Shown: in pieces, positions 55,310 to 63,323 of the stretch
How positions within the stretch are numbered: position 1 is the stretch's first letter
How the letters are laid out: each line of letters starts with the position of its first letter
Assembly (NCBI GenBank): GCA_902768975.1
Contig: CACXMZ010000002.1
Coordinates: 62,001 to 126,000 of the forward strand
DNA length: 64,000 nucleotides
Direction: 5' to 3'
From: an uncultured Coriobacteriaceae bacterium
Lineage (GTDB): Bacteria; Actinomycetota; Coriobacteriia; Coriobacteriales; Eggerthellaceae
Notes under the pieces: model-generated
Database searches by the model: none
What the model was told of the DNA's origin: nothing
What the model saw: the letters and a program-made list of their open reading frames with translations, nothing else
Program-made: the position numbers and the translations under genes

Positions 55310-56479
55310 ATGATCCAACGCATAGCAAAAGATGCGCTGCTACGATTAGCTTCTCAATTTCCCGTGGTCGGAGTGACAGGACCAAGACAAAGTGGAAAAT
55401 CCACGTTAGTTCAAGAAGTATTTCCTGAAAAAAGATATGTAACACTGGACGATGACAGCATTCGTACGATTGCCGCGTCTAATCCGAAGGACTTCATAGA
55501 CGCGTTTCCTGATGGGGTAATTGTCGACGAGGCGCAGAAGGTTCCTGAGCTTTTTAATGCTCTCAAATTGAAGGTGGATTCGGAAAAAAGTGAAGCGGGA
55601 AAGTTTATTCTTACCGGATCTAGCCAGTTCAAGCTCAAGAAAAACATGACGGACAGCCTTGCTGGAAGAGCCTTCTTTCTGGAGTTACTTCCATTTTCTA
55701 TTCAAGAATTGAAGGCTGAAGGCGTATTGCCTGACAGTCCGTATGACCTGATTTTTAGGGGAACGTATCCGCCTCTTCACGACTCGGAAAAAAACTTTAT
55801 TTCGGAAGACTGGTTCGAGGGATATATTGACACCTATATTTCCAGAGATGTAGAAGATTTGATTAATGCATCTAATGCCCAGACTTTCAAGAAGTTTATT
55901 CAAATCTGCGCGCTGCACAGCGGTCAGATGCTATCCATGGACAACATCGCCCGAAATGTGGGGGTAACGGCGCCCACAATAAAAAGTTGGCTCTCGATTT
56001 TGGCGCGTTCATATGTCATTCATTTTCTTGAGCCAGACAGCAACAATTTAGGAAGATCCCTTGTTAAGTCACCGAAGCTATACTTTATAGACACAGGACT
56101 TTTATGTCATCTACTAAGGATTGAAAGCAAAGAAGAACTGCTCTTAAGCGAAAAAAAGGGTGCAATCGTAGAAACCTTCGCCGTATCGGAGCTACTAAAG
56201 CATAGAACGAATGCGGGCCGAAAGGGCAATCTTACATACTTTAGAGACAGGACGGGATTTGAGGTGGATACCATTGCAGACTGGAAGCATTCGTTTGCTA
56301 TCGAAATCAAAAGCACGTCAGAAAGCGAAGCAAAAGCGGCAAAGAACCTTAGGAGATATTTGGAACTGAAAAAACACAACGATTCAAAAGGTGCGGTCTT
56401 TTATCTTGGTGATTTAACTTTGAAAATGAACGGTGTTGATTATGTTGGATGGAGAGACTGGGGAAATTATCAAGACTAG
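55310..56479 (+). CDS. AAA ATPase of the DUF4143 family
   Basis: 389 residues. N-terminal P-loop GPRQSGKSTLVQ (Walker A) and GVIVDEAQKVPEL (Walker B), LTGSSQFKL as sensor, a winged-helix-like middle (NIARNVGVTAPTIKSWLSIL), and a C-terminal DUF4143 nuclease-like part (KKGAIVETFAVSELLKHR ... GFEVDTIADWKHSFAIEIKS). Such genes are common, often mobile, and their role is unclear. Base composition is clearly more AT-rich than the neighbours, suggesting horizontal acquisition. GGAGA precedes the ATG. Confidence 0.85.
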   Translation: MIQRIAKDALLRLASQFPVVGVTGPRQSGKSTLVQEVFPEKRYVTLDDDSIRTIAASNPKDFIDAFPDGVIVDEAQKVPELFNALKLKVDSEKSEAGKFILTGSSQFKLKKNMTDSLAGRAFFLELLPFSIQELKAEGVLPDSPYDLIFRGTYPPLHDSEKNFISEDWFEGYIDTYISRDVEDLINASNAQTFKKFIQICALHSGQMLSMDNIARNVGVTAPTIKSWLSILARSYVIHFLEPDSNNLGRSLVKSPKLYFIDTGLLCHLLRIESKEELLLSEKKGAIVETFAVSELLKHRTNAGRKGNLTYFRDRTGFEVDTIADWKHSFAIEIKSTSESEAKAAKNLRRYLELKKHNDSKGAVFYLGDLTLKMNGVDYVGWRDWGNYQD

Positions 56480-56558: not shown

Positions 56559-56768
56559 ATGACGGACCAGAAAAAAGTAATGACTCCGGAAGAAATTCTT
56601 GAAGCCGCAAAAGGCGAAGGCTACGAGCTTTCTGACGACGAACTTGAAATGGTTGCCGCAGGCGGTGAATGGGTAAACGAAGCCTGCCCCAATTGTGGTC
56701 ATACGGGCACCATGTATTGCCCTGGCACGGGCGTGTCCAGGTGCGGCAAGTGCGGTTCTACCTGGTAG
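56559..56768 (+). CDS. Nif11-leader RiPP precursor-like peptide 1 (Cys-rich core)
   Basis: 69 residues. The leader MTPEEILEAAKGEGYELSDD...EMVAAGG is a Nif11-type leader ending in a double-glycine site (residues 35-36). The remaining 33 residues start EWVNEACPNCG and contain five Cys (43, 46, 54, 62, 65), two of the pairs as C-x2-C, giving a zinc-ribbon look. It ends in Thr-Trp like peptide 2. AAAGGA precedes the ATG. No modification enzyme is directly beside it; the candidate enzymes are at 58.6-63.2 kb. A double hairpin follows. It could also be a non-secreted zinc-binding small protein. Confidence 0.65.
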   Translation: MTDQKKVMTPEEILEAAKGEGYELSDDELEMVAAGGEWVNEACPNCGHTGTMYCPGTGVSRCGKCGSTW

Positions 56769-56797
56769 TTACCTGTAGTTTTTCGTAATAGACAAGC

Positions 56798-56845
56798 GGG
56801 CGCATGAAGCGCCCTGTGTGAGCGCGCCCCAAGGGGCGCGCTCTG
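56798..56845 (+). terminator. Double hairpin, likely terminator
   Basis: GGGCGC-ATGAA-GCGCCC (56798-56814) and a strong GAGCGCGCCCC-AA-GGGGCGCGCTC (56820-56843) followed by TGTTAT, 30-75 bp past the peptide 1 stop. Confidence 0.65.
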
Positions 56846-57009
56846 TTATGGCACGACTAAAAAACAGACCAGAAAACTGCGCCTAAAAACCCTGCAAGGC
56901 GCCCTGTTTTTACTACGGTTCAAACCAAGGATGCAATTAAGCTGTCCCATGAATGCCCCTAAGAGCTATAATGAGGTATATCGTTTTCGGATGCCTTCAG
57001 GGGGTATAT

Positions 57010-57993
57010 ATGGCTGCCAACAGCAAGCAGAAACTAAAGCTTCTTTACTTGTATAAAATGCTCGACGAACAGACCGATGCCGAACATGGTCTGTCCATGG
57101 CGCAAATCCTCGAAAAACTTGAAGAAGAAGGCATTTCGGCCGAACGCAAGGGCATTTACCGCGACCTGGGCATCCTGCGTGAATTCGGGTGCACCGTCAA
57201 CACCATTCAGCGCATGCCCGTTGAATATACGATGGAAAAAAGCGGGCTTGATCTTGCCGAACTTACCCTGCTTTCCGACGCCGTACAGTCGAGCCGCTTC
57301 CTTACCAAGCAGACTGCCGACCGCCTGAGCAAAAAGGTGGCAGCACTCGCTAGCGTGCATGAACGGGAAGCCTTGTGCGGACGCGTGCATGTGGATGGCC
57401 GCGTGAAAAGCCAGAGCGATTCGGTTTTCTACAACGTGGACACCATCCACGCCGCCATACGCGAAAAGAAAAAGATAAGCTTCCTGTATTACAAGTACGA
57501 CACGAATGTTCAGCCGGTCATCCAGCACGGCGGCAAACCCTATGACCTGACGCCCGTGCAGGTGGTGTTTGCCGACGGCTTTTATTATTTGATTACCTGG
57601 TCGGACAAGCACGAAGACTTCGTGCGCTTCCGCGTGGACCGCATGCGTCTGGTGCAAGTGGGCGCGGAAGCTGCCACGCGCAACCAACGCATTGCCAACT
57701 ACAATCTGGAAGATTTTGCCTACCAAGCCTTTGGTATGTACGACGGCGAAGTGACGAAGGCCAAGCTGCTCGTGGCGCCCGACGCCATGGATGTTGTGGT
57801 CGACCGATTTGGCACCGACCTGCGCGTTAAGCGCATTACCGACGGCAGTGCCGAAGTGGCCGTGACCGTGCGCAAGAGCGCCCAATTCTTCGGTTGGGTG
57901 GCGGGAACCAATGGCGCCATAAGCCTTATTGGCCCTAAGGCGCTGGTCAAGGAATACAAATCCTGGTTAAAGCAGCTGCTGAAGAAGGTTTAG
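57010..57993 (+). CDS. WYL-domain transcription regulator
   Basis: 327 residues. An N-terminal helix-turn-helix (about 8-70, with SMAQILEKLEEEGISAERKGIYRDLGILREFG) precedes a WYL ligand-binding domain (about 140-225; AAIREKKKISFLYYKYD and LTPVQVVFADGFYYLITW) and a WCX-like C-terminus. Such proteins sense nucleic-acid or other ligands and often control defence or accessory loci. The ATG at 57010 has GGGGG upstream and TATAAT at 56967-56972 fits its promoter; the frame opens earlier without support. The stop overlaps the convergent gene at 57990 by four bases. Confidence 0.85.
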   Translation: MAANSKQKLKLLYLYKMLDEQTDAEHGLSMAQILEKLEEEGISAERKGIYRDLGILREFGCTVNTIQRMPVEYTMEKSGLDLAELTLLSDAVQSSRFLTKQTADRLSKKVAALASVHEREALCGRVHVDGRVKSQSDSVFYNVDTIHAAIREKKKISFLYYKYDTNVQPVIQHGGKPYDLTPVQVVFADGFYYLITWSDKHEDFVRFRVDRMRLVQVGAEAATRNQRIANYNLEDFAYQAFGMYDGEVTKAKLLVAPDAMDVVVDRFGTDLRVKRITDGSAEVAVTVRKSAQFFGWVAGTNGAISLIGPKALVKEYKSWLKQLLKKV

Positions 57994-58493
57994 GTACGTT
58001 TCCAGCAAAGGTCGTATTGCTGATTTGTTTTGAAGCCCGCCTCGTCCAGGTCAGGCACCATAATAACGCGAGCACGTGTGTCCACGTCACCCGACCAGAT
58101 GGCGGTCGGCCGCGGGTCTAAGCGCATGACCACGTCGCCATGTTCGAAGCGCAGCACGGCAAGACCGTCTTCATACCATGTGTTAGTTAAGTCGTCCCAA
58201 AGGCGGAAATTTTCGAGCACCATATTGTCGTTTTCTACCAAGTCGAGCCGTGGAGGCATACCTTGAAATGAAAGCGACAACACCAAGCGTCCTTCCAAGT
58301 ACACAGGCCCCGAGCTCGGAGCAATGCTTTCGAGGAGGGCATGGTTTGGCACACTAAGTTGCTCTAATGCGAGGCGTGGAGCGCCAAGCTGTTTTTTCGC
58401 TCCGGCTTTTGCTACTGTAGCCCTCTTTTTCGTTCCAGGTTTTGACGCCCGTGTTTGTTTCTGTGTTGTATTCGTTGTATTTGTACGTCCCAT
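57990..58493 (-). CDS. Hypothetical protein with basic N-terminal tail
   Basis: 167 residues from the ATG at 58491-58493, which has AAGGAGA upstream; the frame starts earlier without a site. The first 45 residues are Lys/Thr/Gln-rich and disordered. The rest has a beta-rich look (GPVYLEGRLVLSLSFQG, MVLENFRLWDDLTNTWYEDG, HGDVVMRLDP). No family recognised. It lies 115 bp downstream of the HipA-like gene on the same strand, after a palindromic repeat, so it may or may not belong to that operon. Confidence 0.5.
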   Translation of the reverse strand: MGRTNTTNTTQKQTRASKPGTKKRATVAKAGAKKQLGAPRLALEQLSVPNHALLESIAPSSGPVYLEGRLVLSLSFQGMPPRLDLVENDNMVLENFRLWDDLTNTWYEDGLAVLRFEHGDVVMRLDPRPTAIWSGDVDTRARVIMVPDLDEAGFKTNQQYDLCWKRT

Positions 58494-58584
58494 TGCTTCG
58501 TTTCTCCTTACATTTTTCGCTAGCTTATTGCAACGCAGGCAAGGTCCAAGTCCACGCCATGGGACACAAAGAAGGTTTTTGAAC

Positions 58585-58609
58585 AACACAGGGGACAGTT
58601 CCCTGTGTT
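58585..58609. repeat. 25-bp REP-like palindrome, copy 1
   Basis: AACACAGGGGACAGTTCCC then TGTGTT. It is an imperfect palindrome and identical to the copy at 63237-63261. It begins at the stop codon of the HipA-like gene (58608-58610, read on the minus strand). Confidence 0.85.
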
Positions 58610-59789
58610 AACCCTGAACAATTTCCTTCACGTAGTCGCGCTGCGCTACAAACACACGCGAAACGAGGTCTGCGAAGGCGGGCGGCAGACTCTGGCAGGA
58701 TGCGAATGCATCCTTGACGGCGTCTTCGAAGCCTTCAAGTTTTCGCATGTCACACCAGGACCAATCCCACGACGGGTCTAAGAAAGAAAAGCGTTGCGCA
58801 CAAAACAAATTAACAAGCACGGGGTTTTCGCAATAATACGAAAGAGGAGTCCCGTCGAGCGGAATACCGAAAGCGCCGTCGTAGTCAAAGATGGGTGCCG
58901 CACGCCACACGTCCGTGCTGATTTTGCGTATGGCGCCGACGTTGCCTACGTTGAAATCCGAAAAAAGCGCAAGGCAGGCGAAGCATGCCCGCCTGGCTAC
59001 GTGGGACGAAGCGTCCTCAATTCCGATAGCAGTATAGATATCGACAAGGGCGTCGCATGTCTCCGCCCTCATGCCACCTCCGGCAAAAACGGGACTTTCC
59101 CACGCGTCCACTATCGCGCAGAGCCTGTTCCCGTTGGCAAGTTCTTCGTCGGGGGCAAGCATGAGCGGGCTGACCGAGCAAGGCCTGCCAGAGCGCTCCA
59201 CTACATCCAGGGGAATGAAGTGCCCTTCGCCAAAAAGCAAGGAACATAGTTCGGCACCCAACTTAGCCCCTGCGAGTTCCGCACCATCGGGGTATTCAGC
59301 AGCTTTGACAAGGTAGATGCCTTCGCCGTTGCGCTCCCATGCTTTAACAGCATGACCAGACGTCGTGACTTCAGGAACATTGGGCGAAGCGTCCGCTAGG
59401 TGTGCGTAATCACCCGTAAGAACCGCTTCACCAAAGCTCGGGTCCCAAGCATTGTCGTGGAAGTTCACGTCCTTCCAACCCTCTGTGCTGCCAGGGCTGC
59501 GGTACCAAAGCTGGTCGGTGAGAGAAACACCATGCCCCATGAGGACAATGTCAACAGGCGACCTTGCTCCAAAGGCCGCAAGAATGTCGTCCTTGTCGCT
59601 GCGAAGGGGCGAAATAGCCCGCCTTAACACGAGCATCGACAAAAACCGGTCACTGTTTTCTTGGGTCAGCCCAAAAGAAGAGGCCAGGCTGCTGTTCAGC
59701 ACATTGACGATATGTGCTTTGCCCGTTACCGGGTCAACGTCGAAGTCGACCAGCTCTTGGTCGCCTTGCATGAGTGTGCGCCTGACCAT
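58608..59789 (-). CDS. HipA-like kinase
   Basis: 393 residues. The N-terminal part has MGHGVSLTDQLWYRSPGSTE and WKDVNFHDNAWDPSFGEAV, typical of HipA-like proteins of Gram-positives. Kinase-like elements follow: a candidate ATP lysine in GIYLVKAAEYPDG, a catalytic-loop candidate SDFNVGNVGAI, and a metal-binding FDYDGAFG. No HipB-type DNA-binding antitoxin is adjacent. It starts 21 bp after a Nif11-leader peptide gene, so a role in modifying or regulating that peptide is possible; ATP-dependent phosphorylation is inferred. The ribosome site before the ATG is weak. A palindromic repeat begins at the stop. Confidence 0.6.
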   Translation of the reverse strand: MVRRTLMQGDQELVDFDVDPVTGKAHIVNVLNSSLASSFGLTQENSDRFLSMLVLRRAISPLRSDKDDILAAFGARSPVDIVLMGHGVSLTDQLWYRSPGSTEGWKDVNFHDNAWDPSFGEAVLTGDYAHLADASPNVPEVTTSGHAVKAWERNGEGIYLVKAAEYPDGAELAGAKLGAELCSLLFGEGHFIPLDVVERSGRPCSVSPLMLAPDEELANGNRLCAIVDAWESPVFAGGGMRAETCDALVDIYTAIGIEDASSHVARRACFACLALFSDFNVGNVGAIRKISTDVWRAAPIFDYDGAFGIPLDGTPLSYYCENPVLVNLFCAQRFSFLDPSWDWSWCDMRKLEGFEDAVKDAFASCQSLPPAFADLVSRVFVAQRDYVKEIVQG

Positions 59790-59810
59790 GGGCCTACGTT
59801 CGTGCGCGCA

Positions 59811-59981
59811 CTACCAGGTTTCGTTCATGCAGTTATACCATGCGCCACCTGCGATGGAATCAAGCTGCTCTTCGGTGAGTTCGATGCCTTCGGCTTCGGC
59901 GAGCATAACTAGTTCGTCGGCATTCTTGCAGGCGCGTGCCTTTTCCATTTGTTCAGGAGTTAATTCGTTTATGCTGGCCAT
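59811..59981 (-). CDS. Nif11-leader RiPP precursor-like peptide 2
   Basis: 56 residues, read directly from the minus strand. The leader has INELTPEQMEKARACKNADE and then LAEAEGIELTEEQLDSIAGG, a Nif11-type helix pattern with Gly-Gly at residues 45-46. The short core is AWYNCMNETW: two Trp, one Tyr and one Cys in ten residues. AGGTAG precedes the ATG. It sits between paralogue B (66-bp gap) and the HipA-like gene (21-bp gap) on the same strand, so it is embedded in a likely operon. The Trp-x-Asn after Gly-Gly and the Thr-Trp end are shared with peptide 1. Confidence 0.75.
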   Translation of the reverse strand: MASINELTPEQMEKARACKNADELVMLAEAEGIELTEEQLDSIAGGAWYNCMNETW

Positions 59982-60047
59982 CTTCTACCTGCTTCCCGTC
60001 GGAGTTGGTTTCGAAGTCTTGCTGTAACTTACGACTATTTTACGCTG

Positions 60048-61046
60048 CTACAAACTAATTCGTCCTGCTTGTAGGTAAATCTTCGTGTCGAAAACCTTGT
60101 CTGCACGCACGCGAAACTTCGCATACAGGGGGATGCAGTAAAGCGCTTGCGAAACTGTGCTGTTTTGTATCGCCTTCGAAAACATGGTGTCTGGAATGTG
60201 CTGCAATCGGGCATCGGCGACGTGTGAATTCACGGCGAATTCCATAAGCCGTGCCGCAGCACCACCAGGTTCCCAAGGCGGGCGCGCCGTGCTTGCGGGC
60301 ACAAGGGGAAGTTGGGCGGAAATACCCACGGTTTGCCCGAGCCTTTCGTTAGAAAGAAGGTCGAACTGAAGCTCCATGCCGAAGGGCGATGCAGCCACTT
60401 CAGCACCAACGTTGCGGACCGCTGGGCCTTCAACGGCAAAGCCAATATTCTGGAAGTCTTCCTCAAGCTTTGCAGGGTCGGCTGCATACGTGCGTTTTAG
60501 GTCCTTGTTAACGAAGCAGTCAACTCGAACGGGAGCGCCTGGCCTGCCTGGATGCACGCCGAAATACCACACGCGCCAGCCCTGCGGAAGGCGCTTTATG
60601 AAGCCCTGATAGAGCTCTGCTGCTTCGGGCCTGCCCACGTGTGCGAAGAAACCCTCGGCGTCGAAAGCATTGGCAGCATTCACATTGACGTGCACGGCGG
60701 GGGCTTCAATTCGGCCTTCGCCTACGTCGTACGCGAGCGCGATGCCGCCGCCTTCGCGGGGTGCAGATGCATACCAATTCAACAGTTCACCGTGGCCGTC
60801 CAGAGCACTCGGAGTAAAGGGGGCATACTCATGTATACCTTCGTTACTGTAGGCAACATGCAAGTCGAAACGCGGCGGGCCAGTAAGCGGAATCTCGAAC
60901 CAGAGGATGGGCGCCAAGGCGCCGAGCGAAGCACGCTGGCATGCCTCTTGCGCGAGCAGGGTGCTCGTTCCAAATAGGTCGTGTTCTACCTTCTTGGAAG
61001 CCAGGCGGTACAAGGTTTCGTACGCTGTGGTTGCTTCGGCACTCAT
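60048..61046 (-). CDS. Unknown enzyme-like protein, paralogue B
   Basis: 332 residues from the ATG at 61044-61046, which overlaps the stop of paralogue A as ATGA and has GAGGTGG upstream; translation is therefore coupled. It shares several blocks with paralogue A: FEIPLTGPPRFDL, FGVHPGRPGAPVRVD, LEEDFQNIGF, MELQFDLL, and a C-terminal FRVRADKVFDTKIYLQ. The alternation of amphipathic helices and strands and the final K-x-YL strand are compatible with an ABBA-type prenyltransferase fold, but no motif proves it. It precedes a Nif11 peptide gene. Function unknown; peptide modification is a hypothesis. Confidence 0.55.
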   Translation of the reverse strand: MSAEATTAYETLYRLASKKVEHDLFGTSTLLAQEACQRASLGALAPILWFEIPLTGPPRFDLHVAYSNEGIHEYAPFTPSALDGHGELLNWYASAPREGGGIALAYDVGEGRIEAPAVHVNVNAANAFDAEGFFAHVGRPEAAELYQGFIKRLPQGWRVWYFGVHPGRPGAPVRVDCFVNKDLKRTYAADPAKLEEDFQNIGFAVEGPAVRNVGAEVAASPFGMELQFDLLSNERLGQTVGISAQLPLVPASTARPPWEPGGAAARLMEFAVNSHVADARLQHIPDTMFSKAIQNSTVSQALYCIPLYAKFRVRADKVFDTKIYLQAGRISL

Positions 61047-62065
61047 GCTTCCACCTCGCCAGCAGAGAATCTGAGATAGAACTTCGCCGGCTGCGCAACG
61101 CCCCCAGCAAACTTGACCTTCGCGTAGTTGAACAGGCAACAAAGGGCGAACCTGCCCGTGGTCCCGTCTTCGCGGTCGAATGGCACATGGCGCGCTAAGG
61201 CTGCGCCCGCAATAAGCTTCCAGCGATTGTCTGCAAGCCCCCAGTCCTGCAAGATGCTACAGAGGTGGGCACCGTAGCCGCTTTCCATACAGGCGCGAGC
61301 TTCGCGCGGTTTCGTTTCATTGAACGAAAGTGACAAGCCGAATATGTCTCTGAGTGTTCCGTCGGGCATAATGTCGAACTGGAAGTCGATGGACGGTGCA
61401 AGCGTAAGGAAGGTACTGCATTGTTCGAGCATTTCACTGTTGTAGGCGGAAAAACCAATTTGGTCGAACTGCGCCGCAAGGAGTGCAGGATCCTTAGCGC
61501 ATGCCTTTTGAATGTCGCCTGCCAGATAGCCTCCGATACGCATCGGAGTGCCCGCCCGTCCTGGGAAGAGGCCCACATAGGCTGGCGGCCAGCCTTCGGA
61601 CATGCGGTCGGCTACTGCGAGGAAGCTTTCCGTCCGGGCGCCTTCGCCGATGGATTCCAGAAAGGGCGCAATTAGATTTTGGTGTTTGCGGTACTGCAGG
61701 TACACGCCTGCGCGTTCGGTTTCGCCAGCCGATGTATCCAGCTCGATCCCGCAACTCGCATTAACGCCTGTCGCGCAAACATCTGCAAACCAGTCAAACA
61801 TTGCCTGGTAGCCAAAGCCCGCCCCTGGTGCGAACTTGGAGCCGGGCTGCATGCTGTGATGGACCGAAAGCAAGTCGAAGCCCGGAGGACCAAAGAGAGG
61901 AAACTCTAGGTAAGCATCTGGATAGTCGTCGCCTATGAGCGTGCGTTCGTAAACGCTCCGCGCGATGTCGAAGCTATTCCCGAACAGCGCTTCACCCCTG
62001 CCGTCTTTTGCGGCAATTAAATACAGCGCATCGAACACCGTCATCTGAGATGGTTTTCCAGCCAT
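61043..62065 (-). CDS. Unknown enzyme-like protein, paralogue A
   Basis: 340 residues from the ATG at 62063-62065; an ATG seven codons later is also possible, and neither has an ideal ribosome site. It is homologous to paralogue B, with LEFPLFGPPGFDL, VGLFPGRAGTPMRIG, LLAAQFDQIGF, SIDFQFDIMPDG and a C-terminal AKFYLRF. First gene of the minus-strand operon A-B-peptide 2-HipA-like. No signal peptide or membrane segment. The family was not recognised. A tandem pair of related proteins with a precursor peptide suggests two modification steps or a heterodimer. Confidence 0.55.
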   Translation of the reverse strand: MAGKPSQMTVFDALYLIAAKDGRGEALFGNSFDIARSVYERTLIGDDYPDAYLEFPLFGPPGFDLLSVHHSMQPGSKFAPGAGFGYQAMFDWFADVCATGVNASCGIELDTSAGETERAGVYLQYRKHQNLIAPFLESIGEGARTESFLAVADRMSEGWPPAYVGLFPGRAGTPMRIGGYLAGDIQKACAKDPALLAAQFDQIGFSAYNSEMLEQCSTFLTLAPSIDFQFDIMPDGTLRDIFGLSLSFNETKPREARACMESGYGAHLCSILQDWGLADNRWKLIAGAALARHVPFDREDGTTGRFALCCLFNYAKVKFAGGVAQPAKFYLRFSAGEVEA

Positions 62066-62115
62066 GTTTATAGGATAGCACCTTGCTTTTTCACGCACGC
62101 CACGGGTTTGCCAAC

Positions 62116-62152
62116 AACGTAGGAGACAGTTCTATGTATTCCCCCCTGTGTT
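62116..62152. repeat. Degenerate copy of the REP-like palindrome
   Basis: 62116-62140 matches the 25-bp repeat at 19 of 25 positions (core GAGACAGTTC), followed by a half-site CCCCTGTGTT at 62143-62152. It lies in the divergent promoter region between paralogue A and peptide 3. Confidence 0.55.
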
Positions 62153-62223
62153 GCAGCGGGCACGCCAGGACATTCCTCGATAATTGCGCGTATAAGATGT
62201 ATAAGCAACAATGAGGAGGAACC

Positions 62224-62442
62224 ATGGCACACGATAACACCGACAACATGTCCAACGACGTGAAGGCGAAGCTGCGCGGCTGCGAGACTGCCGACGAGAT
62301 CGCAGAACTCGCCCAAGAGGAGGGCTGCGAGCTCACCGACGAACAGCTCGAGAGCTTCTCCGGCGGCTGGGCGGGCAAATGCGACGACTATACCTGCACC
62401 AGCGACACCTGCGATACGTATACAAAAAATATAGGCGAGTGA
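62224..62442 (+). CDS. Nif11-leader RiPP precursor-like peptide 3 (periodic Cys)
   Basis: 72 residues. The leader (SNDVKAKLRGCETADEIAEL then CELTDEQLESFSGG) is a clear Nif11-type leader with Gly-Gly at 47-48. The core starts WAGKCDDYTCTSDTCDTY: Cys 53, 58 and 63 are spaced every five residues in an Asp/Thr/Tyr-rich context. GGAGGA precedes the ATG. The next gene, 39 bp downstream, is a QueC-like enzyme. Codon use favours GAG, unlike most of the window, so the pair may have been acquired together. Confidence 0.75.
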   Translation: MAHDNTDNMSNDVKAKLRGCETADEIAELAQEEGCELTDEQLESFSGGWAGKCDDYTCTSDTCDTYTKNIGE

Positions 62443-62481
62443 CGATTGCCCATGCCTAGCTAGCTTCTCGCACCAGGCAGC

Positions 62482-63228
62482 ATGAGTACAGAGATACGGC
62501 TCTTGTGGACTGGGGGCTGGGACTCGACGTTCCGGCTCTTGCAGCTTTCGCAAATTGAAGGACTGACCATACGTCCCATCTACATCAGGGACCATGGGCG
62601 GCCCAGCATGGCACACGAGCTTTCCGCCATGTGCGCCATCCTGCCGCAGGTTCGCGGCATCGCGCGCGCCCGCGTGATGGACGTGGACCTGTACGACCGG
62701 GGCACGATAGCACACAACTACCCGAACGATGCCATTTCAGAGGCCTACGGCAGGCTCGCGGATGAGTTCGGCCTGGGCTACCAGTACGAGATGTTCGCAC
62801 TCCTGTGCGAAGGCCTGGGCATACGGGCCGAATGTGCGGTGGAGAACTCGCCGAGGAGCAAGGCGAAGCGGGCGATCGAAGCCCAGTGCCAGCTTGTGCC
62901 ATGCGACACGGACCCCTGTGGGAACGGGCGCTTCCGCGTCATCCCCAAAGGCGAAAGCAGCGATGCGGCAACGGTGTTCGGGCGGCTCGACTTCGGGATG
63001 CTTGATGTGAGCAAGGTCGAGACGAAGCGCGTGGCGCAGAAGATGGGCTGGATGCCAATCATGCGGAAGACCTGGTTTTGCCATGAGCCAGTGAATGGCA
63101 AACCGTGCGGAGTCTGCAACCCTTGCAAGGACGCAATGAACGAAGGGATGCGGTGGCGCATGCCACTTTCGGCGCGACTGCGCTATCGGATGTGGCTCGC
63201 CCGGCAAGACTCCGAGCTGGCACAGTAA
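62482..63228 (+). CDS. QueC-like ATP pyrophosphatase beside a Nif11 peptide
   Basis: 248 residues. A PP-loop LLWTGGWDSTFRLL (residues 8-21) matches the SGGxDS adenylation motif. The C-terminus has C-x8-C-x2-C-x2-C (WFCHEPVNGKPCGVCNPC), the QueC zinc site. QueC converts carboxy-deazaguanine to preQ0 by adenylation and ammonia addition. No QueD, QueE or QueF is nearby. Direct linkage to a precursor peptide suggests recruitment to peptide modification, as QueC relatives have been in protein-modifying defence systems; this is inference. GAG-rich codon use. The stop codon abuts a palindromic repeat. Confidence 0.75.
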   Translation: MSTEIRLLWTGGWDSTFRLLQLSQIEGLTIRPIYIRDHGRPSMAHELSAMCAILPQVRGIARARVMDVDLYDRGTIAHNYPNDAISEAYGRLADEFGLGYQYEMFALLCEGLGIRAECAVENSPRSKAKRAIEAQCQLVPCDTDPCGNGRFRVIPKGESSDAATVFGRLDFGMLDVSKVETKRVAQKMGWMPIMRKTWFCHEPVNGKPCGVCNPCKDAMNEGMRWRMPLSARLRYRMWLARQDSELAQ

Positions 63229-63323
63229 CACAGGGGAACACAGGGGACAGTTCCCTGTGTTCGGCACGCAGCCAACGCAGCCTGCCGAACGGGATAGTAA
63301 CACAGGGAACTGTCCCCTGTGTT
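63227..63323. repeat. Inverted pair of REP-like palindromes
   Basis: Copy 2 (63237-63261) is identical to the repeat at 58585. Copy 3 (63299-63323) is its exact reverse complement. A partial unit AACACAGGGG (63227-63236) precedes copy 2 and starts inside the QueC-like stop codon. Between them CGGCA...TGCCG can form another small stem. The arrangement resembles REP doublets. Confidence 0.85.

Follow-up and report, generated by a model that had tools for sequence, protein, structure and literature searches.

Peptides that carry Nif11-type leaders belong to the ribosomally synthesized and post-translationally modified peptides (RiPPs), and were described together with NHLM-type ABC exporters bearing a C39 domain, the leader ending in Gly-Gly (Haft et al. 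2010, PMC2887384). In that work, N11P peptides beside NHLM-type exporters were already noted in Eggerthella lenta, and the modifying enzymes were of the YcaO/cyclodehydratase and LanM types. Here, we analyzed a stretch of 64,000 nt from an uncultured Coriobacteriaceae bacterium ("the window", G000:C2:62001-126000; genome G000, 1.89 Mb in 10 contigs), in which the same kind of leader and Gly-Gly end occur with different enzymes: a QueC-like PP-loop protein, QUE, next to the precursor peptide P3, and a HipA-like kinase, HIP, next to the precursor peptide P2 (Table 1). No description of QueC together with Nif11, or of HipA together with Nif11, was found in the literature searched, and as far as this literature shows the QueC-like/Nif11 pairing is undescribed; the chemistry that we infer for it draws on two known cases. 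In QueC, ATP activates a carboxylate, and ammonia gives the amide and then the nitrile (PMC13329287), whereas a C-terminal nitrile on a RiPP is made by a different ATP-dependent enzyme, PesC of the nitrilobacillins (PMC13060819). As we suppose for QUE, PesC uses ATP to act on a RiPP at its C-terminal carboxylate, and its precursor also has a conserved C-terminal motif; unlike the 248-aa QueC-like zinc protein studied here, it is asparagine-synthetase-like and uses Gln, and its precursor, partners and host lineage differ.

The linkage between P3 and QUE was assessed in 399 genomes of the order, searched with a P3 profile and, separately, with a QUE profile. Eight P3 matches scored 106-132 bits, the next falling to 81, and six intact QUE genes were found (in G000, G051, G120, G128, G234 and G355), any QUE match at all occurring in only 10/399 genomes. 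A P3-type Nif11 gene was positioned 43-344 nt from each intact QUE gene (6/6), and in every case it was among the eight top P3 matches. The linkage that an earlier note on this DNA had asked to be checked in other genomes thus held for the QueC-like protein. Its description of P3 and QUE as a divergent pair was mistaken for the window, where P3 precedes QUE on the + strand with 39 nt from stop to start and a ribosome-binding-like gaggagg at 62213-62219 serves the P3 gene; overall, the two genes point in the same direction in four cases and diverge in two relatives (loci L099 and L139). Decayed QUE copies in G123, G268 and G346 (residues 71-239, 105-246 and 209-235) had no P3-type gene alongside, and the remaining two of the eight P3-type peptides were one in G124, at a contig end, and one in G225, without QUE. 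The core of this G225 orphan ends in -NWGV, where a QUE-linked core of G051, alike in other respects, has -NWGE. Across the 66 distinct Nif11 cores collected, a C-terminal Glu was present in 6/6 QUE-linked cores (five -GE, one -AE) as compared with 5/60 of the others (Fisher, 5e-6), the contig-end G124 peptide being one of these five. Orthologues of P3 were found at L099, L105, L106, L107 and L139, other genera included. That the orientation changes, that several genera are involved and that the two are lost together speak for selection acting on the P3/QUE pair.

The homology of QUE to QueC was weak but genuine (PF06508, E 1.9e-4, 21.4 bits, cut-off 22), and QUE scored 15.6 bits with TIGR00364, against a cut-off of 150.3. 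In its structural model, built from a 56-sequence alignment (predicted local distance difference test, pLDDT, 96), the top solved match was Bacillus subtilis QueC (3bl5), and the lower-ranked matches were other PP-loop enzymes, the nitrile synthetase ArtA included. QUE shares with canonical QueC the PP-loop, the C(x)8CxxCxxC zinc motif and the overall fold, and both the GGWDS loop and the zinc cysteines (C200, C209, C212 and C215) are invariant in the 56 sequences. It differs in falling below the family cut-offs, in having lost the substrate signature and in lacking surrounding queuosine genes. Of the QueC substrate motifs (YxQxHxxE, VPxRN, YPDC and the zinc-loop Tyr; PMC13329287) it preserves nothing beyond the Tyr and Glu in the first, and it lacks the equivalents of R99, Y131 and Y189, signature residues that E. 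coli QueC cannot do without (PMC13329287). Position 107 is Leu in the RiPP-linked clade and Arg in 84% of the other family members, a substitution that suggests an altered substrate pocket. At the loci viewed, no queD or queE neighbors of QUE were seen, and no QUE was found on plasmids. Four of the six hosts (G000, G120, G234 and G355) gave no match to canonical QueC and no convincing match to QueE, the latter with the caveat that the assemblies are fragmentary; the other two, G051 and G128, carry both QUE and canonical QueC. Because the ATP and zinc motifs are kept, the queuosine substrate motifs are lost and four of the six hosts lack QueC and QueE, QUE probably acts by activating a carboxylate of the peptide, and not in queuosine synthesis or deazaguanylation. 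In G128, an apparent QueE-QueC fusion lies in a queuosine-type gene run (L229 4488-6596; G128:C134).

We propose that P3 and QUE form a two-gene RiPP cassette, in which the Nif11 leader would bring P3 to QUE. QUE would adenylate a carboxylate with ATP, most likely that of the Glu conserved at the C terminus (-GE), and reaction with ammonia would then give an amide or, via a second QueC-like round, a nitrile. The leader would be cut off after Gly-Gly by the C39 domain of an NHLM exporter whose gene lies elsewhere in the genome, and the core exported; the Cys/Asp-rich part of this core may also receive cross-links from a radical SAM/SPASM maturase acting in trans. P2 and HIP would make up a second, separate cassette, the kinase possibly phosphorylating a Ser/Thr of its peptide. 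We give this two-cassette explanation an even chance overall. That QUE acts on P3 is likely; a C-terminal amide or nitrile on P3, with the site and product that we infer, is more tentative and has at best an even chance. A broader reading is rather unlikely: that QueC-like enzymes installing a C-terminal nitrile or amide on Nif11 peptides define a RiPP class, with Trp-containing cores modified in neighboring cassettes by the HipA-like kinase and perhaps by divergent ABBA prenyltransferases, and with shared NHLM export.

Several observations weigh against the amide/nitrile proposal. The QUE model has only moderate likeness to QueC (TM-score 0.44/0.53 with 3bl5), and the RiPP-linked QUE genes form a single clade (65-80% identical, support 0.998); with this common ancestry the six linkages are not six separate events, and the Fisher and chance figures overstate their independence. 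The co-loss of Glu rests on one genome, one QUE-linked core ends in AE, and the C-terminal Glu might serve recognition or cleavage rather than being the modified site. Among QUE homologues of other phyla (31-39% identical), none of 76 loci had Nif11 nearby; sugar or capsule genes were neighbors at 34 of these 76 loci, and no other short peptide genes were convincing by eye beside the non-coriobacterial QUE genes. With identical carboxylate-activating chemistry, QUE might instead join a Glu/Asp carboxylate of P3 to an amine, giving a macrolactam or a C-terminal amine adduct as do asparagine-synthetase-like lasso cyclases. The C-terminal E and acidic residues conserved in all QUE-linked cores would suit such a ligase, as would the carboxylate-amine bonds that the QueC fold is known to form (Cap9; PMC13279940), but the cores have no conserved Lys, a ring closed on the core N terminus would differ in size between peptides, and no leader-removing protease is adjacent, all of which makes amine ligation unlikely. 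Cap9 (type IV cyclic-oligonucleotide-based antiphage signaling system, CBASS) and QatC (qatABCD) are likewise QueC-family enzymes recruited to a protein partner encoded nearby, the former a proven and the latter a likely protein-modifying QueC relative (PMC13279940, PMC13329287), and membership in this common superfamily raises the prospect that QUE places 7-carboxy-7-deazaguanine (CDG) on a peptide amine. This we consider very improbable, since CDG is apparently not made in most hosts, as judged from the absence of QueC and convincing QueE in four of the six, in two of which (G000 and G234) the QueD-like gene adjoins a folC-like gene. In addition, the CDG-recognition residues (compared with PMC13329287) are absent from QUE, no defense genes were seen alongside it, and the N termini seen in P3 peptides (MAHD, MDIE, MTHE and MDTE) do not carry the MGGS/MGTS motif (PMC13279940). 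Finally, QUE could be a replacement for QueC in queuosine biosynthesis with P3 nearby by coincidence, as the absence of canonical QueC from some hosts would allow. Such a role is hardly credible given that G051 and G128 hold QUE plus canonical QueC, that the hosts without QueC also lack convincing QueE, that QUE is so rare among the genomes searched and that it is linked to and lost with P3; a canonical queuosine function was rejected on motifs, family score, neighbors and missing QueE.

A rival on a larger scale treats the whole stretch as one operon group acting on shared peptides, in which the paralogous proteins A and B would prenylate Trp, the kinase would phosphorylate and QUE would cap. 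The genes are physically close in the window, and the fifty best PDB matches of a two-sequence AlphaFold model of A/B were nearly all ABBA aromatic prenyltransferases; there is also a precedent in MppC, an ABBA enzyme that geranylates Trp of a cyanobacterial Nif11-leader peptide (PMC12715784), and Trp is frequent among the 66 Nif11 cores. However, the A/B model has a pLDDT of 55, and comparison of the A/B profile with eight actinobacterial DMATS sequences was not significant (HHalign, probability < 1%), leaving the ABBA fold as a low-confidence lead. A and B (27% identical) had no match to a Pfam family or PDB profile and belong to a family of this lineage that is present in multiple copies in most genomes of the genus; most copies in the six same-genus genomes had no Nif11 gene nearby. 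The earlier note had tied this family to Nif11 and named lack of co-occurrence as what would speak against it, and for most copies that is what we found; A and B were accordingly rejected as Nif11-dedicated enzymes. Were they ABBA-fold proteins, they would share with the MppC/MppE prenylated lanthipeptide system (PMC12715784) an ABBA-type enzyme, the Nif11 leader and a core that contains Trp, which is what makes the fold interesting, while differing in having no sequence match to known prenyltransferases, in mostly not tracking Nif11 and in the absence of a visible LanM gene. Since the gene pairs are also found apart in other genomes, a single pathway for the whole locus is disfavored and we regard it as quite unlikely.

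The separate P3-QUE and P2-HIP cassettes fit better with the sister locus L041 (G004:C59), which keeps the WYL regulator, D199 and A/B, with A broken, and where P2 and the kinase are replaced by a MoaA-like radical SAM gene with a Nif11 gene on either side (L041 4395-5800). The locus appears to serve for the exchange of Nif11 cassettes that differ in their enzymes, and we see in it several swappable cassettes rather than the single new RiPP locus, with an unusual set of enzymes, that had been suggested before.

Table 1. Genes of the Nif11 locus, with positions in the window.
Gene	Position	Strand	Features
P1 (peptide 1), 69 aa	56559..56768	+	Nif11-type leader, zinc-ribbon-like core CPNCGHTGTMYCPGTGVSRCGKCGSTW
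WYL/WCX-domain transcription regulator	57010..57993	+	flanked by P1 and D199; synteny shared with L041
D199, 199 aa, without family match	57990..58589	-	last gene of the B-A-P2-HIP-D199 run; kept in sister genome L041
HIP, 393 aa, HipA/CtkA-type Ser/Thr kinase homologue	58608..59789	-	
P2 (peptide 2), 56 aa, Nif11-type precursor	59811..59981	-	core AWYNCMNETW
Protein A, 332 aa from MSAEATT start	60048..61046	-	open reading frame (ORF) open to 61142; B paralogue
Protein B, 340 aa	61043..62065	-	ORF open to 62098; A paralogue
P3 (peptide 3), 72 aa, Nif11-type precursor	62224..62442	+	leader end ..FSGG, core WAGKCDDYTCTSDTCDTYTKNIGE
QUE, 248 aa, QueC-like PP-loop ATP pyrophosphatase	62482..63228	+	C(x)8CxxCxxC zinc site

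The three small ORFs with Nif11-like leaders ending in Gly-Gly were all present where they had been placed, as were the A/B paralogy, the HipA/CtkA-type kinase and the QueC-like protein with its zinc motif. Taken singly, P1, P2 and P3 scored 19.6, 16.2 and 19.9 bits with PF07862 (cut-off 23.8), below the Pfam/NCBIfam thresholds, and 58.6-77.5 bits with a Nif11 profile built from the lineage, which included these leaders. Each has orthologues in other genomes, and in the sequence a Gly-Gly cleavage site is followed by a variable core. P1 is assigned to neither cassette; its core is near-constant across genera (CPxCGHTGTMYCPGxGxSRCGKCGSTW) with a zinc-ribbon-like Cys pattern, other Nif11 cores being variable, and besides the window gene (56559-56768) P1-type genes occur at L088 12553-12762, L107 1579-1788 and L221 58-321. 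Long zinc-ribbon-like Nif11 cores also adjoin the kinase in L087, L089 and L092.

The genes of the minus-strand run that ends in D199, a protein without a family in Pfam/NCBIfam searches, are tightly spaced, and HIP directly follows P2 within it. The HIP family profile matched CtkA (3akj, E 2e-7) and 9/13 family members matched PF07804, the window protein singly being below detection for HipA_C. K162, E216, D278, N283 and D302 were invariant in 13 relatives, and by analogy with HipA we take K162, D278, N283 and D302 to be the catalytic K, D, N and D that HipA/CtkA kinases share. The close homologues lack the N-terminal helix-turn-helix (HTH) of more distant relatives and adjoin Nif11 peptides or an NHLM exporter: in 5/10 (45-72% identical, the window's own counted) a Nif11 gene lay within 0.2 kb, in a sixth within 1.9 kb, and a paralogue on contig C5 of G000 comes immediately after an NHLM exporter, whereas six more distant HTH-fused homologues had no Nif11 gene in 9-20 kb. 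In G121 (L087), a P2-type core, TWYNCMNETW, sits beside the kinase, a pair near-identical to that of the window. Linkage of the kinase to Nif11 genes held in about half of the close homologues and is looser than that of QUE, and the HIP-Nif11 pairing is separate from P3-QUE. HIP likely modifies or controls Nif11 peptides, and phosphorylation of the peptide core would be a guess. No relatives of HIP, or of A/B, were found in viral contigs.

Homologues of radical SAM maturases, exporters and C39 peptidases were absent from the window, where no models specific to LanM or YcaO were run. Elsewhere in G000, 10 further matches exceeded the curated Nif11 cut-off, and three NHLM_ABC1 exporter genes scored above cut-off, in agreement with the earlier expectation that export genes lie outside the locus. 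Ranthipeptide-like radical SAM/SPASM maturases adjoin two of these three exporters (L234 1759-3357, G000:C7; L233 13747-15099, G000:C4), one of them directly after a Nif11 gene; their nearest NCBIfam models were TIGR04463, Clo7bot and PapB, all below cut-off. Because such usual maturases are present in the genome, they may act in trans on the window peptides.

Other features were observed around these loci. In G000, five Nif11 genes occur within 12 kb (L036 2832-15150; G000:C2:146.8-159.2 kb), four with short Trp/Cys-rich cores and one with a long zinc-ribbon-like core, near a second WYL regulator and with no obvious maturase, and a clostripain-like C11 peptidase gene lies beside an A/B family member (L032 5652-8489). 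Downstream of QUE in G234 (L100/L105), a Nif11 leader is fused to an apparent remnant of a G004-type radical SAM gene, with a C-terminal kinase remnant ~8 kb beyond it, both being debris of other cassettes. AAA ATPases, DUF4143-like by eye, flank several loci (window 55310-56479; L099 12254-13570; L101 8141-9475). A wide QueC-like family (LWTGGWDSTFRLL) extends over many phyla (L108-L184), its neighbors often being glycosyltransferases, CapA, TupA-like ATP-grasp proteins and UDP-glucose dehydrogenase; this family perhaps forms amides on sugar acids.

Nitriles and amides at the C terminus are valued in protease inhibitors, and for nitriles on RiPPs we found just one reported pathway, that of PesC (PMC13060819). 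If the proposal for P3 and QUE is true, the QueC fold would have been turned to a protein partner a third time, Cap9 and (probably) QatC being the earlier cases, and for the first time to a small peptide of the secreted type, in a two-gene system ready for testing. Solving the P3 case would also give a handle on the QUE relatives that occur in many phyla, often in polysaccharide gene clusters.

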